DNA from: Macrocybe gigantea | Taxonomy: Eukaryota; Basidiomycota; Agaricomycetes; Agaricales; Callistosporiaceae | DNA length: 64,000 nucleotides | Assembly: GCA_011319805.1 (NCBI GenBank) | Contig: SJRY01000328.1 | Location: 1 to 64,000, forward strand | Direction of reading: 5' to 3' | Shown: positions 2,038 to 62,680 of the stretch, in pieces | Layout: each line of letters begins with the position of its first letter | Numbering within the stretch: position 1 is the stretch's first letter | Notes under the pieces: model-generated | What the model saw: only the letters and a program-made list of their open reading frames with translations | Databases searched by the model: none | Told to the model about the DNA's origin: nothing | Made by a program: the position numbers and the translations under genes

Positions 2038-2270
2038 GTGTCTCCTCGGTAGCACAGCCTCGGCTGTGGTCCCCGTTCAAGGGGACGCTCATTGATTTCT
2101 TCTTTTCGTATTTTCTCTCAGAATGTAAATAGAAAATATGTACACATGGACATGCTCCTCTCTACTCTCGGGAGGGATTATGATATTCTGTTTTTCCAAG
2201 AACCCGCTTGGAATCTCATAAGACACGCTCCGTCTGCCCACAATGTTGAGGGTGAGGCAGTAATTGGTGA
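2034..2270 (+). pseudogene. LINE ORF2 N-terminus (endonuclease start), truncated
   Basis: This is the start of ORF2, with ATG at 2034 overlapping the ORF1 stop (ATGA). After about 20 codons a frameshift moves the recognisable sequence into another frame, which reads SSFRIFSQNVNRKYVHMDMLLS and then DILFFQEPAWN. The QEP motif carries the catalytic Glu of EEP-type (APE-like) endonucleases. Compared with the copy at 28948-29781, only about the first 65 residues remain before S1a interrupts it. It cannot be functional. Confidence 0.8.
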
Positions 2271-3206
2271 GGGCTGGTTGGCATAGCGGTAAACGCAAGT
2301 CAGGTAGTCCTGTGGCTGTGGCAAGCCACAAAGCCGCGGGTTCTAGTCCTGGAGGTGGCATCTTCAGGTTTGCATCCGGAAGTGTCCGGAGCTGGTTCCA
2401 CGTGACGCGGGCAGGAAGTATCACAACCCTGTGACAGTTGTTCCCACGAGGGAGGTGACTTGGTCATGTGACTAAGCAGCTGGCACGTGACGTAAGCTGG
2501 GTTATGCGTCACACATGTGACTTACCCCACTATGTGGGTCAAGTGTCACATGACCCTAACTCACGTGACCGGGTTTCCCTTGGCGTGGATGGCCTTGGGA
2601 TGTAAGTGCCGGACAATGCCTTAATCCGGCAGACCACACGTGATCCCCGATCTTAAAAGGTAGGGCCGAAAGGATAAGGGACCATACCGGGAATTAGGCT
2701 GATAACCACCGATGGCGTTTGAGCCAACAGGGTACCCGGTCTAAGTGGGAGCCGTTGGCAATGATCACGAGATGGTTAGTCACGTGCAGTATGCCAAAGG
2801 CAGAAGCAGATCCAGACCCGTTCAGTAAGGGCTTCCCCTGTGGGAACCTGTCATGGGAGGACCATGGACCTTGCTGTGATATCGGATGCCAGTCTGGGAG
2901 GCACGTGGCAAGACAGAGACCTTGGACAGATGGGGATCCGTGCCTAAGGGCATCAGCGAACCATCTGCTGGGGGACGGGAAGGCAGGCACGTGGGTAGCG
3001 CCCGGACACCGCTGGGCCGTAGCAAGGCTGGACAGTCTCCAGTCCTTGGCTCGAGAGACCTAACTCCTCTGTCGGTGGACCCTGGACTAATACAACCAGG
3101 TAACTGCTTAAGTTGAAGCCGGAGTGCGAAGCTCCTGGGCTAAACGGTCCGATCATAGGACTGGGCCTGGGCTAGCAGCCTCCCCCGCAAGGGGGGGCTA
3201 AACTTC
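2271..3206 (+). mobile_element. S1a: tRNA-headed non-autonomous retroelement, fused to LINE 3' part
   Basis: This copy begins gggctggttggcatagcgg, which is tRNA-like, and ends with a C/G-rich hairpin (cccccgcaaggggggg) followed by ctaaacttc. It matches S1b-f but lacks about 260 bp found in the 1.2-kb copies. The body is rich in CACGTG and CATGTG palindromes (for example near 2398, 2465, 2485, 2563 and 2637). It has no poly(A) of its own. Its 3' end is joined directly to LINE ORF2 sequence at 3207, which continues to a poly(A) at 4752-4779. I see no convincing target-site duplication. Confidence 0.85.
2279..2349 (+). promoter_or_regulatory. Pol III-type A and B boxes at the head of S1a
   Basis: TGGCATAGCGG at 2279-2289 fits the tRNA A box (TRGCNNAGYNG). 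GGTTCTAGTCC at 2339-2349 fits the B box (GGTTCGANTCC) except at one or two bases. The 60-nt spacing is typical of tRNA-derived SINE promoters. The same boxes sit at the heads of S1b-f (for example 18698-18708 and 18758-18768 in S1c). Confidence 0.75.
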
Positions 3207-4377
3207 GCGCCTCAGTTGGGGGTGACCCATCTAAAGTGAGAAATCTCGCTTCTTTGTCAGACAGACAGCGTGCTGCGCTCAAGTCCCCTCTCAAGGATCT
3301 GGTGGATCTGAAACCACCACTCTTTTTAACCACGGATTATTTCGCTGATGCAAATAACCCGGGCAGGCGGCTTGTCGACGAGTTTGGCAGTCGCTTTGAG
3401 ATCCATAAGTTACTTGGCCGAGATGAGGACTCGGTCAAGGCTTATCGTGCATCGCTGGATCAGGCACTTGCTCAGTGTTCAATCCAGCATGATTGCTCTT
3501 ATGTGAGTAGTGATGGCTCCGTGCCTGCGAAAGCAGAAGCGCCACTTAAGCAGTCTGTGTCAGCTTCACGTGTGTATCGTGAGGGCAGACTGGTTTCTGA
3601 GATTCGTCAGCCGGTTGGCAAAGCAACGAGTGACGATGCTGAGCTTATTGGATTGTGAATGGCGATCCAGAAGGCTATCGCACAAGATGGAGTTAATTCT
3701 GTCGTGTGCTTTTTGGACTCGATGAATGCAATCAATCGCATCATTGATTGTAACCCCCACTCTGTGCAGTCGCATTCTATTGCACTGTGCAGATCATTGA
3801 AAGCTTGGCTCTCAGAAACTGAGCAGCGCCGGATTGAATTCTGGCACGTCCCTTCCAAATGGAAGTGGACAATACAAGTCGAGGCCCACGAGTTTGCCCA
3901 GAGCCTTGACATCCCCCTGGGACTTCGTCCCTCTATACCACCGACGGCCTTCAAAAGGAGGCTGCCGATGATATGCATAGCACTTGGTTCCAGAATTCTG
4001 GGAACAAGAAATATATTGGTGCTTCCACATTTCATTTTCATGAAGCAGGAAAGCCAAATTCCTATGAACGCCCCTCTCGGAAGAGAATTGGCTTCATGAA
4101 GCTTGTGACAGAGAATGAGCTTTATGCCCGCTGTTCACGTCTCGCATGCAGCCATGCTCCGATCAATGCGTATCGGGCACGGTTTAAGTTTGTAGAGAGC
4201 GATCTATGCTCATGCGGACGAGGGCCTGAAGACTCCGTCCACGTTTTGACTCAGTGCCGTAAATGGCACAGGCCAACCGAACGCCAATTTGACGCATTTG
4301 TGCATCACTGGTTCATTAAGTATCTTGCATCTAATAAAGCTGCAGGTGCTTTCATTCCGGATCCAGGCGGCGGGTGA
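3207..4377 (+). pseudogene. LINE ORF2 C-terminus: RNase H and zinc motif, broken
   Basis: This is the C-terminal part of ORF2. RNase H motifs are visible: YVSSDGS (first Asp), ELIGL (Glu) and VVCFLDS (Asp). The fourth position reads VEAHEFA where NExAD is usual. After RNase H comes a C-x-C-x8-H-x4-C motif (LCSCGRGPEDSVHVLTQC) like those following RNase H in other LINEs. TGA at 3656-3658 replaces CGA of other copies (LIGL then stop), and a missing C near 3930 causes a frameshift. The true stop is TGA at 4375-4377. Confidence 0.87.
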
Positions 4378-4748
4378 CTGCCGTTCTGTAGCGGAGATCG
4401 TCCGGGGTGACCTAGGCAATCTTAAAACAGTCGGACCAGCGACCCAAGCACTGATCGAGCACTATGCGAAACGCAAACTTCGCGACAGTATCCGTTATAG
4501 GTCCTCTTGGACCTTTTACGTGGAACTGACCACATCCGGCCCTTTGGGGCTGGGGACGGTGCTCGAGCGAGTGTGTACGCACGAGCTCGAGTCATATGGT
4601 TCGAGCACGGGCATGAGAGAGCAGGGCAGTGCAGCCCTCTATGTATTTTCCTTCAGTCTGGTTTGGATCGGACTTGTCATATTTATAGTAGGTACCTGGG
4701 TGTATTTACAAGCGGACTGCCATCGTGCACCGCTATATAAATTGTTGA

Positions 4749-4779
<31 letters not shown>
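3207..4779 (+). mobile_element. LINE 3' fragment forming the 3' half of the S1a chimera
   Basis: This is a 5'-truncated LINE of subfamily A, starting in ORF2 between the RT and RNase H domains (GGDPSKVRNLASL). It ends with a 3'UTR, the terminal ctatataaattgttgat motif and a poly(A) at 4752-4779. It directly continues S1a. The next base (4780) belongs to another truncated LINE in the same orientation. Confidence 0.88.
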
Positions 4780-4783
<4 letters not shown>

Positions 4784-5650
4784 CTCACGAGCTTGCCCGG
4801 AGCCTGGATGTTCCCCTGGGACGTTGTCCCCTCTATACCACTGATGGCCTTCAAAAGGAGGCTAACGATGATATGCATAGCACTTGGTTCCAGAATTCTG
4901 GGAACAAGAAATATATTCGTGCTTCCACGTTTCATTTTCATGAGGCAGGAAAGCCAAATTCCTATGAACGCCCCTCTCGGAAGAGAATGGGCTTCATGAA
5001 ACTTGTGACAGAGAATGGGCTTTATGCTCGCTGTGCATGACTTGCATGCGGCCATGCCCCGATCAATGCGTATCGGGCACGGTTTAATTTCGTGGAGAGC
5101 GACTTATGCTCTTGCAGACGAGGGCCCGAAGACTCTGTCCACGTCATGACTCAGTGCTGCAACTGGCACAGGCCAACTGAATGCCAGTTCGACACATTTG
5201 TGTGCTACTGGTTTATCAAGTACCTCGCATCCAACAAGGCCCAGGTGGCGGGTGACTGCCGCTCTATAGCGGAGATTGCGTGGGCAACCTAGGCAATCTT
5301 AAAGCAGTAGGACCAGGGACTGAAGCGCTGATCAAGCATTATGCGAACCGCAAACTTCGCGACAGCATCCGTCATAGGTCCTTTTGGACCTTTTATGTGG
5401 AATTGACCACAACCGGCCCTTCGGGGCTGGGGACGGTGCTCAAGCAAGTGAGTATGCATGAGCTCGGGTCTTTTAGCTCAAGCGCAGGCATGAGAGAGCA
5501 GGGCACTGTAGCCCTCTATGTACTCTCCTTCAGTCTGGTTTGGATCAGACTCATTGTATTTATAGTAGGTACCGTTGTGTATTTACAAGCGGACTGCCAT
5601 CGTGCACCACTATATAAATTGTTGATTTAAAAAAAAAAAAAAAAAAAAAA
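4780..5650 (+). mobile_element. LINE T2, 5'-truncated, with ORF2 C-terminus and poly(A)
   Basis: It starts mid-RNase H (EAHELARSLDVPLG), directly after the poly(A) of the previous copy. It carries the zinc-motif region with stops and frameshifts (for example TGA at 5038-5040), then the 3'UTR and a poly(A) at 5629-5650. It belongs to subfamily A. There is no intervening sequence on either side. Confidence 0.85.
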
Positions 5651-5651
5651 C

Positions 5652-6999
5652 AAAACCAAACTGCAGCATTTTTCGTGCAATAGCAACGATCCCCGTCCTG
5701 CTATTGATTTGGGTTCTGCCCCGTTCACAGGCAATACTCTCTTACGGCCTAAGGATGTTTGGAGATACCTTGGGTTCTTCCTGGATGTGTGCCTATCCTT
5801 CAAGGAGCACGTCTGTTTCTATGCAACAAAAGTACTAACTACTGCTAGGGCTTTCTAGACGTTGGGCAATTCCATGCGAGGGCTATCCCCTCAACAAAAG
5901 CGCATCCTCTACCTGTCATGCGTGCATCCCATCGCAACATATGGCTGTTTGATATGGAACTTCAATGGTATGTGCAATGTTGCACTGTTGAAGCAACTAT
6001 GCCAGATGCAATGCAAAGCTTGCATTTGGATCAATGGTCAGTTCCACACCACTCCGGAGGGTGCGGCTGAAATGATGGCCTGTGTCGAGCCTATCACCAG
6101 GTTCATCAAGCATCTTAAAGTCGGGTCCTCTGCCCAACTGGCCAACTCGAACCTGAGGCACAGCCTCAGATCTTTAACTACCCCGCCTGTAGTGGGGGGT
6201 GATCCTTTGAGGTCGAAAAACTTGACCTCCCTCTTGGACAGGCAGCATATTTCGCTAAAGTCCCCTCTCAAGGATTTGGTGGATCTTAAACTACCTAACT
6301 TTTTATCCACAGACTATTTTGCAGATGCAAATAATCTGGGCAGGTGGCTCATTGACCAGTTTAGCAGCTGCCTTGAGATCCATAAGCTCCTTGGCAAAGA
6401 TGAGGACTCTGTCAAGGCTTATCACACATCACTCAAACAGGTGCTTGCTAAGTGCCAGCTTGAGCCTAATTGTGTATATACCAGTAGTGATGGCGCCATG
6501 CCCATGAAAGCAGATATACTCAGACAGTCAGGGTATTCATCCCGGGTTTACCGAGGCAATACACTTGTTTTCGAATCTCGTCAGCCTGTCAGCAAAGTGA
6601 CAAGTGATGACTCTAAGCTGATTGGACTGTGGATATCAATCCAAAAGGCCATTGCACAGGGTGGAGCTACATCCATCGTGTGCTTTCTCGACTCGATGAA
6701 TGCAATCAATTGCATTATCGATTGCAACCCTCACTCTGTGCAGTCACATTCTATTGTACTGTGCACCTCACTGCAAGCTTGGTTTACCCAATCTGAGCTG
6801 CACAGGATTACATTCTGGCATGTCCCTTCCTCTTGGAAGTGGGCTATTCAAGTCGAAGCACACAAGTCAGCACGTGGCCTCGACATCCCTCAGGGACTTC
6901 ATCCCTTCTATACTACAGATGCACTCCGGAAGGAGGCAGATGATGATATGCATGCCTCCTGGTTCCATGAATCTGGAATCAAGAAATATATTGGCATTC
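5652..6999 (+). mobile_element. LINE T3, internal ORF2 fragment (RT thumb to RNase H)
   Basis: This fragment is truncated at both ends. It begins in the region downstream of the RT catalytic motif (KLQHFSCNS, GSAPFTGNTLLRPKDVWRYLGF) and runs through RNase H to DDMHASWFHESGIKKYIG. An in-frame stop at about 5856 is followed by an uninterrupted stretch of about 380 codons (5862 onward). At about 7000 it flips into LINE sequence on the opposite strand, with GGC shared at the join, and it has no poly(A). It belongs to subfamily B (QLEPNCVYTSSDG). Confidence 0.8.
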
Positions 7000-21230: not shown

Positions 21231-24200
21231 GTTGACATCAGACCATGCTCCACTGTCACTTGTGTTGGACGTTCCCCTGCTTGACTTATCTGTCTGGCAT
21301 CGAACACTAAGCAAAGACAGTGTGCCGGAGTTTATCTCTGACATTGCTGCTGATCTTCTCGGGATGGACATAGTCCCTATCGAGACTAACAACGACCTCG
21401 AAAGTGTCTTGCTGACACTCTCAAAGGCCATTGACCGAGCTTGGAACCTCCATTCTAAGGAATGCAAACTTTCAAAATGGAGCAAAGATTGGTGGAACCA
21501 GCACTGCTCTGAGACCCTTGATACTTTCAGGCAAAGCCATACTGAAAGGGATCATCGCATCTGGTGGTGAGCTGTCAAAGATGCTAAACGTGCCTTCTTT
21601 GATCAGCGGATCAAAGAGGTTGCCGAGAAATCTCGTCGTCCATGGGACCTAGCTGCGTGGATGAAACAGAGACCTCTACCAGACTACGAAGCTATCTCTT
21701 ATCAGGAACAGCCGTGCAACTCTATCGAAGCGCTTTGGAGTGTGCTTGATAAGTCTTATAACGCTGCGTCTGATCATGCAGTTAATTTGGATTGCCTTAA
21801 TGACCTCGAAGCGCATCCGGTAAGGGACTGGGTCCCTTTCTCTGCTACAGAACTCCGAGAGTCCTTGGAGCCTTGCAGCAATACCTCTGCTCCAGGACCA
21901 GATCACCTGTCCTGGGGCCACATTAAACAGCTGGTGAAGTTCCCTCACGTAGCTGCATTTATCTTGAACATTGCAAATGCATATTTAGACCTGGGGCATT
22001 GGCCCTCTTACTTCAAGCAGAGCTTGTCCGTTATCATTCCGAAACCTGGCAAACCTGCATACGATACCCCGAAAGCCTTTCGTCCAATTGTGCTTTTGAA
22101 CACTCTCGGCAAACTTGTCGAAAAAATGCTAGCGCGGCGTATGCAATACGAAGCAACCAAATATGCTGTCTTTGATCCGAAGCAGTTTGGTGGCATTCGT
22201 CAGAACTCTACGGAGGATGCTGGTGTCTTTCTGACCCATATTATCCAGCAGGGCTGGCTAAAGGGTCTCAAGACGAGCGTTATTGCTTTCAATGTTGCTC
22301 AATATTTTCCCTCTCTCAACTATGGGATGTTGGTGAGGATACTTCAACATGGGGGCTTTGCACGTCAAGTGTCTAAGTTCTTCGAGTCTTACCTCGTCGG
22401 ATGTAAAACTTCCTATGCTTGGCGTAGTGCCATCTCACCAGAGTTCAATGCCAATGTTGGTGTCGGCCAAGGCTCTGCTCTATCTCCGGTACTGTCAGCC
22501 TTGTACTTGGCACCAGTACTGAAAATATACCAGAAGGTTGACAATATGCTGACCATCATGTCGTTTGTAGATAATGGGCTGATTATCGCTCAGTCCAAAT
22601 CCATCCCGGACAAGAGGGCGTATGCATCTGTGCACAACCTCTTTACAGACTTCAGTCTTGTTGTTGAACACAACAAAACTGAATTGCAGCATTTTTCGCG
22701 CAATAGCAAGGACCCGCGTCCTTCTATTGATTTGGGCTTTGCCCCGTTCACGGGCAACACTCCCTTGCAACCCAAGGAGGTGTGGAGATACCTTGCGTTC
22801 TTTCTGGACGCGTGCCTGTCTTTCAAGGAACACGTCCGCTTCTACGCAACAAAAGCACTGACTATGGCCAGGGCCTTCCAGATGTTGGGCAACTCTGTGC
22901 GAGGGCTATCCCCTCAACAGAAGCGCATCCTCTACCTGTCGTGCACGCATCCTATTGCGATGTATGGCTGTTTGTTATGGAACTTCAATGGTATGCGCAA
23001 TGTCGCACTGTTGAAGCAGCTATGCCAGATGCAGTGTAAGGCTTGGATTTGGATTAATGGTCAATTCTGCACCACTCTGGAGGGCGTGGCTGAAATGATG
23101 GCCTGTGTCAAACCTATCGCCGGGTTTATCAAGCATCTGAAAGTCAGGTCCTCTGCCCAGCTGGCCAACTCCAACTTGAGGCATGCCCTTAGAGCTTTGA
23201 CCACCCCACCTGCAATGGGGGGTGACCCCTCGAGGTCAAAAAACTTGACCTCTCTCTCAGACAGGCAGCGTATTGTGCTCAAGTCCCCTCTCAAGGATTT
23301 GGTGGACCTTAAACCACCTAACTTTTTATCCATGGACTATTTTGCAGATGTGAATAATCTGGGCAGGCAGCTCGTTGACCAGTTCAGCAGCCACCTTGAG
23401 ATCCATAAGCTTCTTGGCAGAGATGAAGACTCTATCAAGGCATATCGCGCATCGCTCGAACAGGCACTCGCTGAGTGTCAGCTTGAGCCCAACTGTGTAT
23501 ACATGAGTAGTGATGGCGCCGTACCCACGAAAGCTGATACACTTAGACAGTCAGTGTATTCGTCCCGGGTCTACCGAGGCAATACACTTGTTTTCAAAAC
23601 TCATCAGCCTGTCAGTAAAGCGACAAGCGATGACTCTGAGCTAATTGGATTGCGTATATCGATCCAGAAGGCTATCGCACAGGATGGAGCCATATCCATC
23701 GTGTGCTTCCTCGACTTGATGAATGCAATCAATCGCATCATCGATTGTAACCCTCACTCTGTGCAGTTGCATTCTATTGCACTGTGCACCTTATTACAGG
23801 CTTGGTTTGCCCGGTCCGAGCTGCACCAGATTTCATTCTGGCACGTCCCCTCCTCTTGGAAGTGGGCTATCCAAGTTGAAGTGCACGAGTCAGTGCGTGG
23901 CCTCGACATACCTCAGGGGCATAGTCCCCTCTATACCACAGACGCTCTCCACAAGGAGGCAGATGATGATATGCATGCCTCTTGGTTCCATGATTCTAGA
24001 ATCAAGAAATACATTAGCGCCTCCACATTTTGATTCCATGATGCTGGAAAGCCTGAGTCCTATGAGTGCCCGCTTTGTAAGAGAAAGGGCTTCATGAAAT
24101 TGGTGACAGGCAACGAGCTATTTGCTCGTTGCTGTCGCGTTGCATGTGGACACGCGCCAATCAATGCATATCGAGCGCAGTTTAATTTTGTCGAGAGCGA

Positions 24201-24800: not shown

Positions 24801-24831
<31 letters not shown>
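21228..24831 (+). mobile_element. LINE T11 (subfamily B), 5'-truncated
   Basis: It starts at the endonuclease SDH region (LTSDHAPLSLVLDVPL), directly after the T10 poly(A), and runs through most of ORF2, the 3'UTR (hairpin GGGCCC-ttt-GGGACCC, 24553-24568) and poly(A) 24807-24831. It is followed without a gap by T12 on the opposite strand. Confidence 0.88.
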
Positions 24832-26177
24832 GTCCATAAAGAGGTTGTGCACCGATGCGTACGCCCTCTGAAGCTTCGGAACATTGTCTGGGATGGATTT
24901 AGACTGAGCAATAATCAGTCCGTCATCCACGAATGACATGATAGTCAGCATATTGTCAACCTTCTGGTATATTTTCAGTACTTGTGCCAAGTACAAGGCT
25001 AACAGTACTGGAGATAAAGCAGAGCCTTGGCTAACACCAATGTCAGCATCAAACTCTGGCGAGACGGCACTGCACCAGGCATACGAAGTCTTATGCCCAA
25101 TGAGGTAGGATTCAAACAACTTTGACACTTGATGTACAAAGCCTCTGTGTTGTAGTATCCTTACTAACATATGATGGTTAAGTGAAGGAAAATATTGAGC
25201 AACATCAAAAGCAATAACACTTGTTTTAAACCCCTTAACCCAACCCTGACGGATGATATGGGTTAGGAAGACTCCAGCATCCTCCCTAGAGTTCTGCCAA
25301 ATGCCACCGAACTGCTTCAGATCGAAAACAGCAAATTTGGTGGCTTCGTATTGCATACGCTGCACTAGCATTTTTTCGATGAGTTTGCCAAGGGTATTCA
25401 AAAGCACAATTGGGCGAAAGGCCTTTGGGGTATCGTATGCAGGTTTGCCAGGTTTCGGAATAATCACCGACAGGCTCTGCTTGAAGTAGGAGAGCCAGTG
25501 GCCCAGTTCCAAACATGCATTAGCAATGTTCAAGATAAAATCAGCCAAGTAAGGGAATTTCACCAGCTGCTTAACATGGCCCCAGGACAGATGATCTGGT
25601 CCTGGAGCAGAGGTGTTGCTACAAGGCTCCAGGGACTCTCAGAGTTCTGCAGCAGAAAACGGGACCCAGTCCTGAATTGGATGAGGCTCGAGTTCATCGA
25701 GCTTATCCAAATTAACTGGCCTGTCAGACACAGCATTATAGGATTTGTCAAGCACATTCCACAGTGACTCAATAGAGTTACAAGGCTGTTCCCGAAAGGA
25801 GATAGCCTCATAGGCCGGAAGCAGCCTTTGCTTCATCCATGCAGCTAGATCCCATGGATGTCATGATTTTTCAGCAACTTCCTTGATTCGTTGATCAAAG
25901 AAAGTGTGTTTAGCATCTTTAATAGCTCGTCGCCAGATGTGATAGTTGCCTTCAGACCGGGTCTGCCTGAAGGTATCCAAAGTTTCGGAACAATGCTGAT
26001 TCCACCAGCCTTTGCTCCGCTTCGATAGCTTGCACTCCTTAGAGTGGAGGTCCCAAGCATGGTCAACTGATTTGGAGAGAGTCTGGAGGATGCTCTCTAA
26101 ATCCTCTAGTGACTCAATTGGCACTAAGTCTATACCGAGCAGATCGCCGGCAATGTCAGAGATAAACTCAGGCACAC
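24832..26177 (-). mobile_element. LINE T12, segment 3 (ORF2 RT region), 3'-truncated
   Basis: This is the 3'-most surviving part of T12. It runs on the minus strand from the endonuclease/RT linker (PEFISDIAGDLLGIDLVP) to the region after the RT catalytic box (SFVDDGLIIAQS, ending HNLFMDF at 24832). Motif A (AFDVAQYFPSLNH) is intact. Stops occur at about 25637 and 25860. It continues 28933-30333 across the inserted S1d-LINE chimera: the 15-bp duplication GTGTGCCTGAGTTTA lies at 26163-26177 and 28933-28947 (minus reading). Confidence 0.88.
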
Positions 26178-26568
26178 TTTTTTTTTTTTTTAATTCAACA
26201 ATTTATATAGCGGTGCACGGTGGCAGTCCGCTTGTAAATACACCAAGGTACCTACTATAAATACGACTAGTCTGAGGCAAACCAGACTGAAGGGAGATAC
26301 ATAGAGGGCTGCACTGCCCTGCTCTCTCGTGCCCGCGCTCGAGCTATGGGACTCGAGCTCACGCATACTCACTCGCTCGAGCACTGTCCCCCAACCCCAG
26401 AGGGCCGGCTGTGGTCAATTCCATGTAAAAGGTCCAAAAGGACCTATAACAATGCTGTTGCAGAGTTTGCGATTCGCATACCGCTTGGTCAGTGCTTCGG
26501 TCACTGACCCAACTGTTTTAAGATTGTCCAGGTTGCCCCGGACGATCTCCGCTACAGAACGGCAGTCA

Positions 26569-27733
26569 CCCGCCGCCTGGATCCGGAATGAAAGCACCTG
26601 CAGCCTTATTAGATGTCAAGTACTTAATGAACCAGTGATGCACAAAGGCGTCGAACTGGCGTTCAGTTGGCCTGTGCCAGTTACGGCACTGAGTCATGAC
26701 GTGGACGGAGTCCTCAGCCCCTCGTCTGCAAGAGCATAAATCGCTATCGACAAAATTAAACCGTGCCCGATACGCATTGATCGGGGCATGGCCGCATGCA
26801 AGACGTGAGCAGCGAGCGTAAAGCTCATTATCTGTCACTAACTTCATGAAGCCCATTCTCTTCCGAGAGGGGCGTTCATAGGAATTTGGCTTTCCTGCTT
26901 CGTAAAAACGAAATGTGGAAGCACCAATGTATTTCTTGTTCCCAGAATTCTGGAACCAAGTGCTATGCATATCATCGTCAGCCTCCTTTTGAAGGCCATC
27001 GGTGGTATAAAGGGGATGAAGCCCCAGAGGAACGTTCAGGCTTCGAGCGAACTCATGAGCCTCGACTTGTATTGCCCACTTCCATTTGGAAGGGACGTGC
27101 CAGAATTCAATCCGGCGCTGCTCGGACTCTGAGAGCCAAGCTTTCAATGATCTACAAAGTGCAATAGAATGTGACTGCACAGAGTGGGGATTGCAATCAA
27201 TGATGCGATTAATCGCATTCATCGAATCCAGAAAGCACACGATGGAGTCAACTCCATCTTGTGTGATAGCCTTTTGGATTGCCATTCGCAATCCAATAAG
27301 CTCGGCATCATTGCTCGTTGATTTGCCAACAGGCTGACGAATTTCGAAAACCAGCCTGCCCTCGCGATAAACACGCGAAGCTGACACAGACTGCTTAAAT
27401 GGCACTTCTGCTTTCGCAGGCACGGAGCCATCACTACTCACATAAGAGCAATCATGCTGGGTCAAACACTGGGTAAGTGTTTGATCCAGCGATGCGCGAT
27501 AAGCCTTGACCGAGTCCTCGTCTCGGCCAAGTAACTTATGAATCTCAAAGCGACTGTCAAACTCATCGACAAGCCGCCTGCCCGGGTTATTTGCATCCGC
27601 AAAATAATCCGTGGTTAGAAAGAGTGGTGGTTTCAGATCCACCAAATCCTTGAGTGGGGACTTAAGCGCAGCACGCTGTCTGTCTGACAAAGAAGCGAGA
27701 TTTCTCACTTTAGATGGGTCGCCCCCAGACGAC
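26569..27733 (-). pseudogene. LINE ORF2 C-terminus within the S1d chimera, open to its stop
   Basis: On the minus strand 380 codons are open from about 27708 (RNLASLSDRQRAALKSPLK) through RNase H (YVSSDGS, ELIGLR, IVCFLDS, VEAHEFA) and the Cys/His motif LCSCRRGAEDSVHVMTQC to AFIPDPGGG and the stop near 26567-26569. It lacks RT and endonuclease. It is subfamily A, nearly identical to the part at 3207-4377 but without that copy's breaks. Confidence 0.85.
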
Positions 27734-28931
27734 GAAGTTTAGCCCCCCCCTTGCGGGGGAGGCTGCTACCTAGGTGGGTCTGCCAGATTAAGGCTATTGT
27801 CCAGCACTTTCACCCCAGGGCCATCCACGCCCAGGGGAACCCTTAACCTAGGACTCCTTATGTGGGTCCAGTGTGCATCCGTCGGGCTTACGCCCTCCCT
27901 ATTTGGTCTGCGGACCCCCCTTGCCAACGGCCGAGGCCTCCCCAAATTGGGTGTGGACTCAGGGATGGTACCGTCTTACTCAGCTGCGGTCTGCCGGATT
28001 AAGGCTTTTTGTCCGACACTTGCACCCCAAGGCCATCCACGCCAAGGGGAACCGTTTAAGCCTGCCAAGTAGGTCGGCATGGACTTTCACCTACACACTG
28101 GGGTCCCCAGAGTCCCACGGAACCCAGGAGTTCACACTTCGGATTCAACTTAAGCGGCAACCTGGGTGTATTATCCCAGGGCCACCGACAGAGGAGTTAG
28201 GTCTCTTGAGCCAAGGACTGGAGACTGTCCAGCCTTGCTACGGCCCAGCGGTGTCTGGGGCGCGACCCCCAGTCCTGCCTTCCCGTCCTCTGGCAGATGG
28301 TTCGCTGATGCCCCTTAGGGCGCGGATCCCCATCTGTCCAAGGTCTCTGTCTTGCCATGTGCCTGCCAGACTGGCCTCCAATATCACAGCAAGGTCCATG
28401 GTCCTCCCATGACAGGTTCCCACAGGGGAAGCCCTTAGCTGAACGGGTCTGGATCTACTTCCGCCAAAGCGTACTGCACCATGACTAACCTCCGTGGACC
28501 CCTACTTCAGGCAGCTCACACGGTACCGGGTGCCTTGTTGGCTCAAACGCCATCAGGTGGTTATCAGCCCAATTCCCGGTATAATCCCTTATCCTTTCAG
28601 CCCCTACACTTTTAGATCGGGGATCACGTGCTTGCACGTGAGTTAGGGTCATGTGACACTTGACCCACATAGTGGGGTAAGTCACATGTGTGACGCATAA
28701 CCCAGCTTACGTCATGTGCCAGCTGCTTAGTCACATGACCAAGTCACCTCCCTCGTGGGAACAACTGTCACAGGGTCGTGATACTTCCTGCCCGCGTCAC
28801 GTGGAACCAGCTCCGGACACTTCCGAATGCAAACCTGAAGATGCTACCTCCAGGACTAGAACCCGCGGCTTCGTGGCTTGCCACAGCCACAGGACTACCT
28901 GACTTGCGTTTACCGCTATGCCAACCAGCCC
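27734..28931 (-). mobile_element. S1d: tRNA-headed part of the inserted chimera
   Basis: This is a full-length S1 of about 1.2 kb, nearly identical to S1b and S1c. Head (A and B boxes) at the 28931 side, terminal hairpin and ctaaacttc at 27734. Its LINE junction lies within about 10 nt of the S1a junction. The antisense 179-codon ORF (27873-28412, plus strand) is open. Confidence 0.9.
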
Positions 28932-28947
28932 TTAAACTCAGGCACAC

Positions 28948-29781
28948 TGTCTTTCAAAAGAGTCCAGCGTGGATCAGAGAGGTCCAGCAATGGGATATCT
29001 AGAGACAGAGACAACGGACAATGGTCTGAAGTCAGTCTCAGGTCATCACGAATGACTGGTGCCACCCCACCACATCAATAGGAGTAAACATCAAATCGAT
29101 AACTGAGGGCTGCAGCTCTGCATTATGTGAGATGAAAGTCAGGCCATGGTTAGATCGCTCCACCCATTCAAGACCAAGGTCAAGTGCTGCATTGCACAAC
29201 ATCTCTCCTCATGTATGCTGTAAAGTATGGACTCCATCCCAGAGTTCATAATGACAATTGAAGTCCCCTCCTAGATAAGATAGGTTGGGGAAGTCAGGTC
29301 TTTCAGCACAATCATGCAGCAAATGAATAGCACTCCCGTCTACATCAGAGTAGGCGCTTGCAAGGAATAGAGGCTCCTCCAGAGTGGAGAAGCTGATGAT
29401 CATCAGGTTGTAACTATCGATGAGACTGCGTCTAAGGGAGGGACACAACTGATGTAAGTGGTTGTGAACATATGCCATTACACAAGGAGAATCCTCATAT
29501 GAAGACCAGCCAATGATGCAAGTCCAGTCGGGATGACTGGGGCCTCTGACTACTGGCTTGCCATCAGTGCTGTGCATTGATGGAGCTTGTCTTAGCAGGT
29601 TCCAAGTGGGTTCTTGGAGAAACAAGATATCATAGTCCTCTCCAAGAGTGGAGAGGAGAACGTCCATATGTACATATTTCCTATTTATATTTTGAGAGAA
29701 AATATGAAATGAAGAAATCAATGAGTGCTTGCCTGATCCAGGGACAACAGCCAGAGCTAATCCACTGGAGGTGTCGCTCAT
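28948..29781 (-). pseudogene. LINE ORF2 N-terminus: EEP (APE-like) endonuclease, broken
   Basis: On the minus strand it starts MSDTSSGLALAV at 29781. It shows the endonuclease landmarks DILFLQEPTWN (catalytic Glu), SAYSDVDGSA and LGGDFNCHYELWDG. The open stretch ends at 29209 with a frameshift; the following region up to 28948 (VERSNHGLTF..., RDIPLLDLSD) continues in other frames. It is the best endonuclease copy in the window. The ATG overlaps the ORF1 end, as in T1. Confidence 0.85.
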
Positions 29782-32312: not shown

Positions 32313-33903
32313 GGAACAGGCACTCATCGAGTGCCAGCTTGAGCCTAATTGTGTATATACCAGTAGTGATGGCACCGTGCCCATGAAAGCAGATACACTC
32401 AGACAGTCAGTGTATTTGTCCCGGGTCTACTAAGGCAATACACTTGTTTTCGAAACTCATCAGCCTGTCAGCAAAGCGATAAGCGATGACTCCAAACTAA
32501 TTGGATTGCGTATGTCAATTCAAAAGGCTATCGCACAGGATGGAGTTACATCCATTGTGTGCTTCCTTGACTTGATGAATGCAATCAATTGCATCGTCAA
32601 TTGCAATCCCCACTCTGTGCAGTTACATTCCATTACACTGTGCACTTCATTGCATGCTTGGTTCACCCTATCCAAGCTGTACCAGATTACATTCTGGCAT
32701 GTCCCTTCCTCCTGGAAGTGGGCTATTCAAGTTGAAGCACACAAGTCAGCACATGGCCTTGACATTCCTCAGGCACTTCATCCCTTCTACACCACAGACG
32801 CACTCTGGAAGGAGGCAGATGATGACATGCATGCCTCTTGGTTCTATGATTCCAGAATCAAGAAATATATTGGCACTTCCACATTTCAATTTCATGATGC
32901 AGGAAAGCCTGAATCCTATGAGTGCCCACTGTTAAACAGAAAAGATGTCCTGACTAGGGATTGAACCCAGGACCTCCTGGACATATACCAGTAGCTCTAC
33001 CACTGAGCTATCAGGCCTGATGGATCAACTTAGAAGTTGTATTTATAACCACCTCATCCTATATACCTTCACTCCAAGACACTATTTTGGTCTAGGTTCT
33101 TCGGTATCTTTGATATTAGTGGAGACAACAATGTGTCTGAATACACACAATCTAACACCCACTTCATAAAAGAACGGGTTTCATGAAGTTGGTGACCAGC
33201 AATGAGCTATTTGCTCGCTGCTGTCGCATTGCATGCAGACACGTGCCGATCAATGTGTATCGAGCACAGTTCAACTTTGTCAAGAGCGATGAATGCTCCT
33301 GCCGATGAGGGCCTGAAAACCCCGTCCATGTCATGACCCTGTGCCGTAATTGGACAAGGCCAGCTGAATGCCAGTATGACACCTTTGTGCATGCCTGGTT
33401 TGTTAAGTACCTCATATTGAATAAGGCAGTGGGTACTTTTATCCTGGATCCGGGGGGCAGGTAACTGCCCTGTCACAGTGGGGATAGGGTTATGGCTCCT
33501 CGCAGAGCCTTTGCACAGAAGTAACTGCAGCCAGCCTTGGACTGGGGGACCTAGAGCATTAAACTAGTGGGGTGTTTGACAAAAGCGAATACCAAGCTTC
33601 ATTGTGATTCGCAGTTTTGGTGATGCTTGATCGTTATGGGCCCTGTTGGACCCTTTATGTAGAACTGACCACATCTGGCTCCTAGGAGCTGGGGGACGCA
33701 GGCCAAGCGGGTGAGCTAGCATGAGCACGAGTCTAAATAGTGCACGCATGGACATGACAGAACAGGGTTAGTGTGCCCTCTATGTATATCTCCTCAGTCT
33801 GGTGTAAGTCAGACTAGTTGTATTTATTGTAGGTACCTCTGTGTATTTACAAGCAGACTGCTATCAAGCACCCCTTTATAAATTGTTGATTTAAAAAAAA
33901 AAA
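32313..33903 (+). mobile_element. LINE T15 (subfamily B), older, carrying an LTR-like insertion
   Basis: This is a 5'-truncated LINE beginning EQALIECQLEPNC at the RNase H region, directly beside the T12 5' end. It ends in a 3'UTR and poly(A) (33893-33903). ORF2 pieces: about 32313-32929 (stop for Arg in SRVY; RNase H motifs IVCFLDL, HVPSSW) and 33163-33464 (C-terminal motif with CGA-to-TGA, stop TAA 33462-33464). It is split by the 228-bp element at 32930-33157. It is CpG-poor, so older than T5 or T7. Confidence 0.85.
32930..33157. repeat. Small LTR-like element (solo LTR?) with an internal tRNA-like sequence
   Basis: It is 228 bp, starts TGTTAAACAG, ends CAATCTAACA (TG...CA with TGTTA/TAACA ends) and is flanked by a perfect 5-bp duplication CCCAC (32925-32929 and 33158-33162) inside T15. 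These are hallmarks of an integrase-type LTR insertion. On the minus strand (about 33018 to 32943) it contains a tRNA-like sequence: a D-arm-like GCTCAGTGGTAGAGC, a T-arm GGTTCAATCCC and a near-complementary acceptor (GGCCTGA / TCAGGAC). It could be a solo LTR, a TRIM-like element or an LTR that captured a tRNA gene. Confidence 0.75.
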
Positions 33904-33998: not shown

Positions 33999-34070
33999 TT
34001 TTTTTTTTTTTTTTAAATCAACAATTTATATAGCGGTGCTTGATGGCAGTCTGCTTGTAAATACACGACA
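33999..34070 (-). mobile_element. LINE T17, 3'-terminal fragment
   Basis: Poly(T) 33999-34014 plus about 55 bp of conserved LINE 3' end (atttatatagcggtgcttga). The next 17 bp (34071-34087) before S2a are not recognised. Confidence 0.8.
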
Positions 34071-34087
34071 AAGTTTAGGGCCCTCAT

Positions 34088-34863
34088 GGGCCCCAGTAGC
34101 CCAGTAGTTTAATCACCACTAAGACTAGAGAGGTGGCTATGCAGTCACTGGAAAGGTTGTGGGTTCAATTTCCACTCATCCCCTGTACCTTAAAAATAGG
34201 GATAGGCATGTGACTCATTATCAGTTACAGTTATGTGCTCAGTGACTCAGGTTGGTAATCAACTCTGAGGCAGTATCATAGTTATGTGACCTTCCATAAC
34301 TAGGGTGGTAACCTGGTCACATGATAGGGATGATTGTGGGAGCCCAAAGTAGCAGGTCAGGTGATCCCTGATAGGCCATGTCTGAAATAGTCATATGATT
34401 AGTCATGTGATCAAGTAGGGAGTGAAAGCACAGGGCATGGTAAGCAGGGGAGAAAGGTGAGAACCACCCAACCTATGATGCGCACCCTGTAATGGGGCAT
34501 TTCAGAGCATGTGTGCTTCTGGAAGGTGTGCGCACTCTGTAATAGGGAGTCTCTTTGGACTGCAAGCTTAGGACAGGACACCCCCCACCAGTTAATCTCA
34601 GGCCCAGTCTAACTAACTGGATTAGGCAGAGAACCTGGTCGTTAGTTAGTGTTGGTAGTGTGGACTGGTCCTTGGGCACACTTGGAAGTCCCCAGGCCCA
34701 GGGGTAGCCACTACATGATCATAAAGCAACTACTCAGATGGGCTAAGACCTTCTCATGGGGCATGCATAACTGGGTTAAGCATGGGTGTAGAACTCCCTG
34801 GCCTAGGCCTTAGGTCTAGAATGCACACTGGAGCTAGATGCTGGCAAGGCAAGACCTAAGGCT
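34088..34863 (+). mobile_element. S2a: second tRNA-headed (SINE-like) family
   Basis: It begins gggccccagtagcccag with A-box-like TAGCCCAGTAG (34097-34107) and B-box-like GGTTCAATTTCC (34162-34173). The stretch between them contains a long, variable-arm-like segment, as in class II tRNAs (Leu/Ser), so the spacing is wider than in S1. The body has scattered CATGTGA/CACATGA motifs, as S1 does, but otherwise does not match S1. It matches S2b (57779-58186) and S2c (47906-48079, minus). The true 3' end is not seen because LTR-B begins at 34864. No ORF. Confidence 0.72.
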
Positions 34864-35576: not shown

Positions 35577-37143
35577 TTTTTTTTTTTTTTTTTTAAATCA
35601 ATAATTTATATAGCAGTGCTCAGTAGCAGTCTGCTTGTAAATACATGAAGGTACCTACAATAAATACAACTAGTCCAATAGGAGCAGACTGAGGGAATGT
35701 ACATAGAGGGTGCACTAACTCTGTTGTCTCCTGCCTGTGCCCATGCCAGTTAGGCTCACACCCATGCTTACTCATCTGCTAGGCCTGCATCCCCCAGCTC
35801 CTAGGAGCCAGATGTGGTCATTTACATGTAAAGGGTCTAAAGGGGTGAATAATGACAAGTGTTGCAGAATCTGCAATATGCAATGAAGCTCAGTATTCGC
35901 TTTTGTCAAACACCCCACTGGATCGATGCTCTAGGTCTCTCAGCCTAAAGGCTGGCTGCGGTTGCTTCCATGCAAAGGCCCTGCAAGGAGCCATAACCCA
36001 GAGAGTCTCCCACTGTGAAAGGGCAGTTACCTGCCCCCTGGATCTGAGATAAAAGCACCTGCTGCCTTATTAGATGTTAGATATGTATTTAATGAACCAC
36101 AAAGGCATCATACTGGCATTCAGTTGGTCTATTCCAGCTATAGCACAGACTCATAATATGGATGGAGTCCTCAGACCTATGTCCATAAGGGCATTTATTG
36201 CTCTCGACAAAATTGAACCATGCTTGATATACATTAATCAGCATGTAGCCACAAGCAATGTGACAGCAATAAGCAAACAGCTCATTGCCTGTCACCAACT
36301 TCATGAAGCCCATTCTTTTATAGAGCGGGCACTTATAGGACTCTAGCTTTCCTGCCTCATGAAAGTGAAACATGGAAGTGCCAATGTATTTCTTGATCCC
36401 AGTGTTGTGGAACCAAGAGGTATGCTTATCATCATCTGCCTCCTTGCAGAGTGCATCAGTAGTGTAAAGAGAATGGAGTCCTTGAGGGATATCGAAGCCA
36501 TGTGCCAACTTGTGTGCCTCGACTTGAATAGCCCATTTCCAATGGGAAGGGACATGCCAGAATGTAATCTGGTGCAGCTCGGATTGGGCACACCAAGCAT
36601 GCAATGAAGTGCATAGAGCAATGGAATGTATCTGCACAGAGTGAGAATTGCAATCGACAATATAGTTAATAGCATTCATCAAGTCAAGAAAGCACATGGC
36701 AGTTATAACTCCATCTTGTATGATGGCCTTTTGGATTGACATGCATAATCCAATCAGCTCAGAATACACTGACTATTTGTTGAGTGCATCTACTTTTATG
36801 GGCATGGCACTATCACTACTGGTATATATGCAATTAGACTCAAGCTGGCACTCAGCGAGTGCCTGCTCAAGAGATGTGCAGTAGGCCTTGATAGAGTCTT
36901 TATCTTTGCCAAAAAGCTTATGGATCTCAAGGCAGCTGCTGAATTCATCAATGAGCAGCCTGCCTGGATTATTCACATCTGTGAAATAGTCCATGGATAA
37001 AAAGTTTGATGGTTTAAGGTCTACCAAGTCCTTGAGGGGGGACTTTAGCACATTGCACTGCCTGTCTGATAAGGAGGCCAGATTCTTTGACCTAGAAGGA
37101 TCACCCCCACAATGGGTGGGGTAGTCAGCAATCTGAGGGCATG

Positions 37144-37147
<4 letters not shown>
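35577..37147 (-). mobile_element. LINE T19 (subfamily B, old), 5'-truncated
   Basis: Poly(T) 35577-35594, a 3'UTR with subfamily-B features, then ORF2 leftward-reading from 37147 (LRHALRSL-like region) to the stop at 36027-36029. It is strongly CpG-depleted. Its 5' edge touches the poly(T) of T20. Confidence 0.84.
36027..37147 (-). pseudogene. LINE ORF2 C-terminus (T19), decayed
   Basis: On the minus strand: GGDPSRSKNLASLSDRQ, the DYFTDVNNPGR region, RNase H (IYTSSDSAMP in one frame, then SELIGLCMSIQKA, AMCFLDLMNA and WHVPSHWKWAIQVEAHKLA in another) and a Cys/His remnant CPYGHRSEDSIHIMSLC, where the second Cys is now Tyr-Gly. A frameshift and deletion near 36770 remove part of RNase H. It is non-functional. 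Confidence 0.82.
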
Positions 37148-37174
<27 letters not shown>

Positions 37175-37444
37175 CTTTAAATCAACAATTTGTATAGCAG
37201 TGCTCGATAGCAGTCCGCTTGTAAATAGACATGGGTACCTATGATAAATACAACTAGTCTGAGTAAGACCAGACTGAGGGGATGTACATAGAGGGTGCAC
37301 TAACCCTGCTGTCTCCTGCCTATGTGCATGCCATTTAGGTGCACACTTGTGCTGGCTCGCCTGCTTGGCCTGCGTCCCCCAGCTCCTAGGAGCCAGATGT
37401 GGTCAATTCCATGTAAAGAGTCCAAAAGGACCCATAACAAACAT
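37148..37444 (-). mobile_element. LINE T20 3'UTR, LINE part of the S1e chimera
   Basis: Poly(T) 37148-37174 (then ctttaaatcaacaatttg), followed by about 250 bp of subfamily-B 3'UTR. It ends at 37444, just past the GGTCC/GGACC-type hairpin, where S1e's ctaaacttc end is joined. This is the shortest LINE partner of any S1 copy. Confidence 0.82.
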
Positions 37445-38379
37445 GAAGTTTAGCCCCCCCCTCTTGCAGGAGAGGCGGCTTATCCTAGCTTCAGGCCTGA
37501 CCCTCTGTTGTGCTATGGAGGTGGCCCATTATCTGGGAGTTTCACACTTCAGATTCAACTTAAGCAGTTACCTGGATGTATTATCCTAGGAACCACCAAT
37601 AGAGGAGTTAGGTCTCTCGAGCCAAGGACTGGAGACTGCCCAGCCTTGCTACATTCCAGTAGTGTCAGGGGCACAATTCCCAGTCCTGCCTTTCTGTTCC
37701 TCAGCAGATGGTTTACAGATGCATCATGTGCATGGATCCCCATCTGTCCAAGGTCTCTGTCATGCTATATGCCTGCCAGACTGGCATCCAATATCACAGC
37801 AAGGTTGCCCTTACTGAACGGGTCTGGATCTACTTCCGCCAACTTAAGCAAGTGATGTACTGCAGTGGCTAACCTCTGTGGACCCCTACTTCAGGCAGCT
37901 CATACAGTACTGGGTACCATGTTGGCTCAAACACCATCAGGTGGTTATTAGCCTGATTCCCAGTATGGTCCCTTATCCTTTTGGCCTCTATGCTTTGAAA
38001 TCAGGGATTATGTATAGTCTGCCAGATTAAGGCATTGTCTGGCACTTACATTCCAAGGCCATCCATGCCAAGGGAAACCCAGTCATATGAGTTAGGGTCA
38101 TGTAATACTTGACCCACATAGTGGGATAAGTCACATGTGTGACACATAACCCAGCTTATATCATGTGCCAGCTGCTTAGTCATATGACCAAGTCACCTCC
38201 CTCATGGGAACAACTATCTCAAGGTTGTGATACTTCCTATCTGTGTCATGTGGAACCAGCTCCAGACACTTCTGAATACAAATCTGAAGATGCCACATCT
38301 AGGACTAGAACCTGCAGCTTCATGGATTGCCACATCCACAGGACTACCTGACTGCATTTACTGCTATACCAACCAGCCC
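37445..38379 (-). mobile_element. S1e: older tRNA-headed retroelement copy
   Basis: On the minus strand it runs from the head (38379, ggctggttggtatagcagtaaatgc) to the terminal ctaaacttc (37445). It is CpG-depleted relative to S1b-d: many CACGTG motifs now read CATATG or CATGTG. It is joined to T20, again in the same orientation. Its head abuts the copia fragment. Confidence 0.82.
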
Positions 38380-38593
38380 TGCAAGATCTCTGACTAAAAC
38401 CTTTAGCAATACAACAAGCTTTGTAGCACTCAATCAAGCCATCTGCATTGTGTTTGACCTTGAAAACCCCATCCACAACCAATAGCCTTCTTTTCTAGAG
38501 GCAAGTCCACAATCTCCCATGTCCCATACTTTATAAGAGATATAATCTCTTCATTATATGCTTTCTGCCACTTGTGAGCATCCAGACATTCAA
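38380..38593 (-). pseudogene. Ty1/copia reverse transcriptase fragment
   Basis: On the minus strand two frames give typical copia RT (RVT_2) N-terminal sequence: CLDAHKWQKAYNEEIISLIKY, then GTWEIVDLP and KKAIGCGW, then VFKVKHNADGLIE and IAKGFSQ after a frameshift. About 70 codons remain. It is flanked by S1e on the left and by a LINE 5' end on the right. It is the only copia coding sequence I see. Confidence 0.8.
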
Positions 38594-57778: not shown

Positions 57779-58186
57779 GGGGCTCCAGTAGCCCAGTGGT
57801 TTGATTGCCACTAAAGACTGGAGAGGTGGCTATGCAGTCACTGGAAAGGTTGTGGGTTCGATTCCTACTCATCCCCTGTACCTTGAAAGTAGGGATAGGC
57901 ATATGACCCATCATTGGTTACAGTCATGTGCTCAGTGACTCAGGTTGGTAATCAACTCTGAGGCAGTACCATGGTTATGTGACCTCCTATAACTAGAGTG
58001 GTGACCTGGTCATGTGATAGGAATGATCGTAGAAGCCCAAAGTAGCAGGTCAGGTGACCCCTGACAGGCCATGCCTGAAATGGTCATGTGATTGATCATG
58101 TGATCAAGTAGAGAGCAAAAGCATAGGGCACAATAAGTGGGGGAGAGACATGAGAACAACCTGACCTATAATGCATACTCTGTAAT
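57779..58186 (+). mobile_element. S2b: tRNA-headed S2 family copy, truncated by G2
   Basis: Head ggggctccagtagcccagtgg with A box TAGCCCAGTGG (57789-57799) and a perfect B box GGTTCGATTCC (57855-57865), plus the class II-like arm between them. The body aligns with S2a for its whole length and is cut by the G2 LTR at 58187. Confidence 0.75.
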
Positions 58187-61900: not shown

Positions 61901-62680
61901 TGATGTCAATCTTGCTAAAGTACTTTGCCCCTTGTAGTATGTCGAGGAGTTTACTAATGCATGGTAATGGGAACTTATCTTTAACCATATATTTGTTTAT
62001 CTCCCGGTAGTCTTGGATGAGTCGTTTGCTTCCATCCTTCTTGTTGCGAAAGAAGCAGGATGCTGCATAAGGTGATTTCGATGGGTGTATTTTTCCTGTT
62101 CGTAATCCTTCTTCGATGAAGGCATCTAGTTCCTCTAGTTCTTTCTGTGTCATCGGATAGACCTTGCTCGGTATCATTTTGGGTGCATCCTTCATTAAGT
62201 TTATTTCATGGTCCCATTCTTTGTAGTCTGGTAAGCGATCAAAGTTCTTCTCCTTGAAGAGGTGTTTGAATCTGATCAGATATGGGGGTATCTGGGTTCC
62301 TGTCTTGTCGCTGGCTGTGGTTTTCGCTGGTTCAGCCACCTTCTGTATCTTAATCGTCTGGTGGTTTATTTTGCACGTTTTAGAGCATCTGTTGAAGACA
62401 ATTTCTCCTGTCCTCCATTTGATTGTTGGGTTGTGGTAGACAAGCCAGTCATGTCCTAGTAGCATGTCAGTTTTTCCAATGTCGAATACGATGGCTTCCA
62501 TGTGCTCCTTGTGTCCTTTGATGTCAATGTTGACTTCCGCTACTCAGTCTGCTGTTTTCTGGCGGTTGGGTGATCCGTCTGCATTTATGATTGGAATCTT
62601 CTTGATTTGTCATGTCTTCAGTCCTGTTTTTGCTACTATTGCGGTGTTGATGCAGGTCCTATCTGCTCCGCTGTCAACTT
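58939..62680 (-). pseudogene. Gypsy pol (G2): protease, RT, RNase H, integrase, chromodomain, broken
   Basis: On the minus strand: protease remnant VDSGADRTC, long open RT start (62501-61896: IPSKVYPMTQKELEELDAF, SPYAASCFF, FSKIDII), a solo LTR, then RT YMDD (61382-61393), the RNase H region, integrase zinc region (CETCQRNK) and GVDLIG (first Asp). The second integrase Asp region reads ISN-stop-G where ISDRG is usual. C-terminal part: NYGMHPWKGE, AYRLELPASWQ. Chromodomain YEIEEIL then, after a frameshift, FLVKWKGYGYEENT with the next Trp codon now TAG. It ends TGA 58939-58941. Confidence 0.88.
61486..61805 (+). repeat. Solo LTR of the G family inside G2 pol
   Basis: 320 bp, sense on the plus strand (opposite to G2), flanked by the 5-bp duplication GTACA (61481-61485 and 61806-61810). 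It splits the RT domain between the FSKIDI motif and YMDD. Confidence 0.92.

Follow-up and report, generated by a model that had tools for sequence, protein, structure and literature searches.

Full-length S1 RNA joined to 5'-truncated LINE copies: a MINE-like system with a three-base joint rule, probably in another fungal phylum

A composite insertion within a host LINE

The window, that is, the whole stretch of 64,000 nucleotides of DNA that was analysed, contains on its minus strand a LINE of an older subfamily (24829 to 29496) that is split by a composite insertion. Homology to the host covers 24829 to 26174 and approximately 28933 to 29496. The reference LINE P3, which is a real copy from locus L033 and not a consensus sequence (as is P5, a LINE piece from L015), aligns on the same strand over its positions 6 to 564 before the insert and 554 to 1898 after it. 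Since both flanks align to P3 in the same orientation, the host is one interrupted element. The inserted unit, read on the minus strand, consists of S1d, a full-length copy of a non-coding RNA of subfamily S1A (27733 to 28931), and a 5'-truncated LINE part with poly(A) (26178 to 27732) that starts at P3 position 2457 in the template context CGCC|TCGTCTGG. A 15-bp target-site duplication, TAAACTCAGGCACAC on the plus strand, lies after the LINE poly(A) at 26163 to 26177 and before the S1 head at 28933 to 28947. The order on the minus strand is thus GTGTGCCTGAGTTTA, one extra A (28932), S1 from GGGCTGG to CTAAACTTCG, LINE from TCGTCTGG to TTGAATTAAAAAAAAAAAAAA, and GTGTGCCTGAGTTTA, with host LINE on both outer sides. 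The extra A separates the duplication from S1, and in other duplication-flanked copies zero to four such bases were counted by eye.

This direct reading agrees with an earlier note on this DNA, which had described a read-through host LINE interrupted by S1d fused to a truncated LINE and flanked on both sides by a 15-bp repeat. The repeat is exact (16 bp if one A common to the poly(A) tail is counted), and identity over this length in the two positions where it is required lies far outside what chance would give. The duplication encloses both parts, which almost certainly entered as a single unit, as the note had proposed.

Within S1d, the 3' end (27733 to 27764, minus strand) is formed by a hairpin at 27741 to 27764 and a tail ending in CTAAACTTCG, a structure common to the S1 subfamilies and to a second RNA, S2. 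Words resembling an A box (TGGCATAGCGG, 28913 to 28923, minus) and a B box (GGTTCTAGTCC, 28853 to 28863, minus) were recognized against the consensus sequences.

The window holds four further chimeras. S1a (2270 to 4778, plus strand) joins a copy of the short subfamily S1B (2270 to 3207) to a LINE part (3208 to approximately 4778) at GCC|C; S1b (locus L026; 7959 to 12722, minus) joins S1A to approximately 3.57 kb of LINE at GCC|A; and S1c (L002; 18689 to 21228, plus) joins S1A to LINE at GCT|T. No duplication was found around any of these three. The fourth, at 37143 to 38380 on the minus strand, is older and consists of an S1O copy (approximately 78 to 89% identical to S1A, by segment) and an older LINE 3' end, with a joint that is not clearly GYY. 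Directly after the poly(A) of S1a, at 4779 to 5655, lies a LINE 3' piece (template GTC|GAGG), possibly created by a jump to the poly(A) end of a LINE; no duplication was found around that unit.

Inspected S1 copies across the genome are followed by LINE sequence

The genome assembly (41.2 Mb in 333 contigs) was searched for S1. A first look gave 149 candidates, 40 of which were scored, so that the count of at least 31 near-full copies, with identities of 93 to 100%, is a lower bound. Thirty S1A loci were inspected, each with 1.5-kb flanks, and in all 30 a sense LINE piece directly follows the S1 3' end. The S1 ends are nearly fixed: the 3' end reads CTAAAC in every copy and CTAAACTTCG in 26 of the 30, and the 5' end lies at query nucleotides 1 to 3 in 29 and at nucleotide 27 in one. 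The LINE joints, counted manually, fall at 25 distinct positions, and the LINE parts start anywhere from near the LINE 5' end (L015 and L004) to its last 100 to 110 nucleotides (L006, L028, and L030). Variable LINE joints together with fixed S1 ends are as predicted by joining during or before LINE reverse transcription.

The earlier note had named S1 copies with tails and duplications of their own, free of LINE sequence, as the observation that would speak against it. None of the 30 copies is a solo S1 with its own tail; two that at first appeared solo (L004 and L015) join the LINE 5' region. The solo-copy count applies to these 30 S1A copies, not to S1B and S1O as a whole or to the candidates left unscored. 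In L012 and L024 the LINE piece ends short of the LINE 3' end. These two copies have an identical 98 nucleotides before S1 and different LINE joints, a pattern explained either by two insertions at one site or by recombination among S1 copies.

Both ends could be assessed for duplications in 25 of the 30 copies (L004, L012, L015, L024, and L027 were left out). A clear duplication of 11 to 17 bp lies outside S1 plus LINE in 11 of these, 2 are ambiguous, and 12 have none next to S1. The expectation that the 5' flank would equal the sequence after the poly(A) in most copies was therefore not quite borne out. The duplication is exact in L001 (15 bp), L005 (14 bp), L008 (16 bp), L013 (15 bp), L018 (17 bp), L019 (16 bp), L020 (14 bp), and L021 (11 bp), and imperfect in L022 (14/15), L028 (13/15), and L030 (10/11). 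Several were spotted by eye and all were rechecked; for L008 the fetched piece starts one base before the repeat, which leaves its poly(A) unseen. The ambiguous cases are L009, which has an indel, and L014, which lies in the poly(A) of another LINE and thus has a poly(A) target. Because the duplication lies outside both parts, S1 was joined before or during first-strand synthesis, and the poly(A) tails and duplications show that insertion was carried out by the LINE machinery.

No duplication next to S1 was found in L002, L003, L006, L007, L010, L011, L016, L017, L023, L025, L026, and L029. For these 12 copies, target deletion or later recombination must be assumed. In several of them the two flanks are LINE pieces that differ in orientation or position, suggestive of deletion or recombination amid dense repeats. 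At L010, a single duplication, AACTCTGTTTCAGGC, encloses a LINE 5' part, S1, and a LINE 3' part, as would arise either from a double switch or from a nested insertion that has lost the 3' half of its host.

The 12 copies without duplication, the dense nesting of the region, and the position of L014 within the poly(A) of another LINE would also suit independent, sequential insertions, with S1 entering beside or into LINEs or LINEs landing behind S1. This explanation is refuted for the 11 copies in which one duplication lies outside both parts. The identical S1 3' end in all 30 copies, the lack of any S1 tail among them, and the GYY joint described below make it scarcely credible as a general account.

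Three uncopied template bases mark the joints

The template assigned to a joint was its nearest relative, LINE or S2, within the sequence analysed, and the cut was set right after the S1 tail. Forty-five joints entered the automated count, from which L039 and the L042 joint at 2927 were dropped for want of an aligned template at that point; L039, by eye, has GTA and not GYY. An S1B copy at L045 that is followed by poly(T), an antisense LINE end, was left out. In 37 of 43 joints the template reads GYY immediately 5' of the cut (GCC in 14, GCT in 14, GTC in 8, and GTT in 1), and these three bases are themselves absent from the element. At thirteen other offsets GYY occurs in 0 to 8 joints, and it occupies 6.6% of LINE positions in P3 plus P5. 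The enrichment is very strong, with a binomial probability of approximately 1e-37 if the joints are taken as independent. The six exceptions are L005 (GCA), L028 (GTC if shifted by one base), an old joint at window position 26546 on the minus strand (84% identity), L038 (AGT), and two joints of L041, at 4093 (AGT) and 8560 (GGA). Both S2-to-LINE joints are among these six.

Some joint positions occur in more than one copy. In pairs of copies with the same joint, the identities of the LINE and S1 parts are 93 versus 98%, 84 versus 93%, and approximately 86 versus 91 to 95%; the L022/L025 pair is closer, with 96.3 versus 97.4%. Since the LINE parts are less alike than the S1 parts, most joints common to two copies seem to have arisen separately at preferred sites. 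This bears on the reading in which S1 is the LINE's own 5' end, standing ahead of TCTCTTTCC, and the copies are deletion derivatives or progeny of one master chimera. Such an origin would account for S1 preceding the LINE in sense orientation in all 30 copies. Eleven S1-less LINE copies (L007, L010, L013, L018, and others), however, start with TCTCTTTCCACAACCC, preceded by GCT in 10 of the 11 and by otherwise unlike flanks. With 25 joints among 30 copies and LINE parts that are differently diverged at shared joints, this origin is very improbable, and we reject it on the S1-less starts and the same-joint divergence. We take the TCTCTTTCCACAACCC start to be 5' TOP-like, its first G possibly being a copied cap.

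Stronger local folding at used GYY sites was not found when 21 used sites were compared with 236 other GYY sites on P3 (minimum free energy on the 5' side, P = 0.92, and on the 3' side, P = 0.33; accessibility, P = 0.97). Used and unused sites on P3 thus do not differ by a strong hairpin directly upstream, the feature proposed for the Magnaporthe LINE MGL, and this argues against hairpin-induced pausing. Spliceosomal trans-splicing was also rejected: no AG stands ahead of the LINE part in the templates listed, and GYY does in most.

Truncated LINEs that lack S1 are too few for comparison; in the sequence analysed a clear duplication flanks two of them, and one of 8 to 9 bp a third. By the most direct placement their 5' ends are TTC|C (31094), ATG|CCGACG (24155, minus strand), and TTG|TCGATG (14692), none of them GYY, with GYY possible under other placements for 24155 and 14692. 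These few ends tell, if anything, against GYY as a rule for the LINE in general. Among twelve further LINE 3' ends, each followed over 1 kb, none is truncated within that 1 kb.

Template switching and its alternatives

The observations can be accommodated by a model in which S1, an RNA of approximately 1.2 kb, becomes attached to the 5' side of a LINE 3' fragment and reaches the genome in this way. The LINE endonuclease would nick the target and the reverse transcriptase (RT) would start at the LINE poly(A), for which the poly(A) tails and duplications are indirect evidence. The enzyme would copy the LINE RNA up to the next template GYY and leave these three bases uncopied, which is what the sequences at the joints show. 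It would then move onto the 3' end of S1 RNA, the hairpin followed by CUAAACUUCG; here the joint is observed and the act of switching is inferred. Copying of S1 would proceed to its 5' end, in keeping with the ends observed, and completion of the chimeric cDNA would yield one insertion with an 11- to 17-bp duplication. We consider a template switch by the RT, and not RNA ligation, the likeliest route, and a probable one. The earlier note had expected such a switch by the LINE RT, and the joints fit it; the switch is not the sole fitting route, since RNA cleavage and ligation fits as well.

Because the bases that define the rule are not copied, it points either to an RT halting ahead of GYY or to cleavage behind it, and so bears directly on the choice between template switching and RNA ligation. 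Indeed, a template cut explains the uncopied GYY at least as well as RT stopping does. In the ligation scheme, LINE RNA would be cut after GYY, the 5' end of the fragment ligated to the S1 3' end, and the chimera copied. A rule bearing on three bases missing from the product resembles a cut site, and the S1-side joints are nearly exact to the base. Two joints are awkward for this scheme. The S1B joint at L005 (reverse strand) lies 3 nucleotides inside the apparent LINE 5' end, with GCT skipped, an odd place for a nuclease. The other is the GTC| LINE piece that directly follows a LINE poly(A) at window position 4780, in the unit without duplication; a LINE poly(A) end is not an expected substrate for such ligases. 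We also know of no nuclease of GYY specificity, and overall we regard ligation as possible but rather unlikely, bearing in mind that it is one of two models published for U6/LINE-1, as presented in the sections consulted (PMC13174262).

A ribozyme activity of S1 would be another way to select GYY. Its 3'-terminal G would attack LINE RNA after GYY in a reaction like the opening step of reverse splicing; a GGC guide, wobble pairing included, would choose this motif. Most S1A copies do end in G, and S1 starts with GGGC. Some S1 copies, however, end in A, S2 has the same tail and little else in common, and S1 gave no group I or group II match at E values up to 10. We therefore hold this alternative to be quite unlikely and retain template switching as the preferred route. 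An assignment of S1 to the group I or group II introns is itself rejected, with no match at gathering scores or at E values up to 10.

The S1 RNA and its conserved 3' end

S1 is non-coding and approximately 1.2 kb long. The short subfamily S1B measures approximately 0.94 kb (33 rows cover at least 870 of 937 nucleotides), and the older subfamily S1O is represented by 18 rows that cover at least 800 of 938 nucleotides and are not S1B, the window copy included. In both, identity is 88 to 98% in the head and 78 to 87% in the body.

The S1 3' end consists of a hairpin and the tail CUAAACUUCG; the ends seen read hairpin and then CTAAACTTC followed by G or A, with a few variants of one or two bases. 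In 13 distinct 45-nucleotide ends, 96.9% of the pair cells are standard pairs, versus at most 74.6% in slid controls. Three pairs are changed on both sides (6 cells), in an alignment that is short and G-rich. Of 500 shuffles, 1 attains the covariation score, and 1 the count of cells altered on both sides; the count of pairs so altered is attained by 84 and is thus not above shuffles. Folding of the 3' end relative to shuffles gave z scores of −2.7 for S1A and −3.4 for S2, and was little better than shuffles for S1O (−1.0). The genome contains 74 exact occurrences of the 14-mer GGGGGCTAAACTTC and none of its reversed control.

The description of S1 as tRNA-headed finds partial support: A- and B-box-like words are suitably placed (P of approximately 0.0005 versus 2,000 mononucleotide shuffles), and no tRNA was called at the S1 head by ARAGORN, or by Rfam at E values up to 10. 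Rfam gave no known RNA in S1 at gathering scores and just four chance-level matches at E values up to 10. TTTT is absent from the S1A, S1B, and S1O reference copies and occurs once in 35.9 kb of S1A copies, versus 66 occurrences of AAAA. This scarcity is in keeping with transcription by RNA polymerase III, a weak argument since the copies are related, and S1 RNA is possibly made by that polymerase. An S1 source gene was not found among the copies examined.

A second RNA, S2, with the same tail

S2 is a second RNA family that starts with GGGCCCCAGTAGCCCAGTGG and has, by eye, good A- and B-box words. Rfam called no tRNA in it, giving instead a 17-nucleotide tmRNA piece at 12.8 bits. With S1 it has in common an 80-nucleotide block (76% identity, E value of 1e-8) and a weaker stretch; at its 3' end, a hairpin of different sequence is followed by the same CTAAACTTCG as in S1. 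Copies were seen at L009 (3580 to 4199), L038, L044, and in the window at approximately 34090 to 34860 and 57780 to 58186, the window copies lacking the 3' end. At 34066 to 34116 of the window, the tail of an antisense S2-like unit abuts the 5' head of another S2 copy.

S1 and S2 occur together in one insertion. At approximately 2240 to 4205 of L041, an S1-S2-LINE triple is flanked by a 15-bp duplication (GTGAACGCGCACCTT/GTGAACGCACACCTT). It consists of S1 without approximately nucleotides 622 to 824, S2 truncated after GGAGCC|, and the last LINE nucleotides with poly(A). The S1/S2 joint follows GCC, a GYY, and the S2/LINE joint follows AGT, which is not. At L044, an S2 copy without its tail is, by eye, followed directly by LINE sequence, which argues against a fixed capture point.

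Relation to known chimeric retroelements

The LINE encodes an ORF2 with endonuclease and RT domains, open over 1,295 codons in L046. An RNase H match fell below the cut-off, and a protein search with the RNase-H-side ORF gave no match at E values up to 0.001. The RT (window 21661 to 24033) has 486 database relatives. Among the best 120 of these, the named ones come from Candolleomyces, Tricholoma, Cyclocybe, Agaricus, Psilocybe, and Leucocoprinus, and the top-scoring named ones are approximately 40 to 53% identical. Candolleomyces and Cyclocybe belong to the Agaricales, Basidiomycota; Tricholoma, Agaricus, Psilocybe, and Leucocoprinus are likewise Agaricales. The rDNA spacer at L047 also has an agaricomycete look, and the DNA most likely comes from a basidiomycete.

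The earlier note had put forward a chimera with a 1.2-kb tRNA-headed partner as a new example. The kind is already known from the Magnaporthe MINE elements (WEIRD-MGL), with a 1.1-kb partner and 31 copies (PMC2104539). As far as the accessible sections of that report go, both systems place a full-length non-coding RNA of approximately 1.1 to 1.2 kb ahead of a 5'-truncated LINE, and both have unit-flanking duplications, variable joints, reused preferred sites, a GYY-type joint motif, and no solo copies; the L041 triple is the counterpart of the WEIRD-MgSINE-MGL triple (PMC2104539). The focal unit has the MINE-type features of a full-length RNA, a sense truncated LINE, direct repeats, no solos, and a joint like GCC*A/U, the Magnaporthe joint in Table 3 of Gogvadze et al. 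2007 (PMC2104539). By our own count, the "representative" sites of that table are GYY| in 17 of 18 rows (PMC2104539). In the S1 system 33 of 43 joints continue with a pyrimidine directly behind the cut, and the A/U part of GCC*A/U is not reproduced.

The S1 system is not MINE itself, judged from one primer, 12 short strings, one LINE copy, and the RT relatives. No stretch of 340 kb of sequence matches the MINE primer MNR2 with fewer than 5 mismatches, one LINE copy contains none of 12 MGL joint 11-mers, and the named RT relatives are Agaricales, so that the phylum is probably another one. The S1 system moreover comprises several S1 subfamilies and a second RNA with one common 3' end, and lacks stronger folding at used sites. 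We therefore regard it as a MINE-like system, probably from another fungal phylum, in which the joint rule is sharper and the RNA 3' end is conserved. With MINE known, the novelty lies in these three features and not in the principle. No fungal LINE chimera of such kind outside Magnaporthe appeared among the matches listed, in titles and abstract beginnings of a mostly open-access literature.

Mammalian LINE-1 chimeras, including U6/LINE-1 and Alu/LINE-1, also combine a full-length 5' RNA with a truncated LINE in sense orientation between duplications, as described in the sections consulted (PMC13174262, PMC4476161). S1 differs in forming a repeat RNA family of its own, whose 3' end is conserved and acceptor-like, and in its strong three-base donor rule, none having been noticed in those sections (PMC13174262, PMC4476161). 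The 5' tRNA-like promoter words (clear by eye in S2, weaker in S1), the block common to families, and the LINE-driven spread recall tRNA-derived SINEs. Unlike these, S1 has no fixed LINE-derived tail, and its 30 copies carry 25 different LINE pieces; 1.2 kb is also long for a SINE.

Tentatively, S1 and S2 may represent a long-lived class of parasitic RNAs that spread through capture on the 5' side when LINEs are copied, with the hairpin and CUAAACUUCG as a portable capture signal and a GYY hand-over conserved between Ascomycota and Basidiomycota. If this is true, SINEs would first gain their LINE tails through capture of this kind. The Magnaporthe pattern recurs here with another LINE and another RNA, very probably in a second phylum, with a joint rule of the same kind that is sharper. 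The 3' end common to largely different RNAs offers a defined acceptor for in vitro testing, and the joints are a natural record of a retrotransposon joining two RNAs. With dozens of them in one genome, the acquisition of LINE tails by SINEs becomes testable.

Other features of the window include a tRNA-Ile (TAT) gene on the minus strand at 32946 to 33017, among LINE pieces, and ORFs at 59019 to 59723 and 61896 to 62501, which we take to resemble parts of a Ty3-type LTR retrotransposon.
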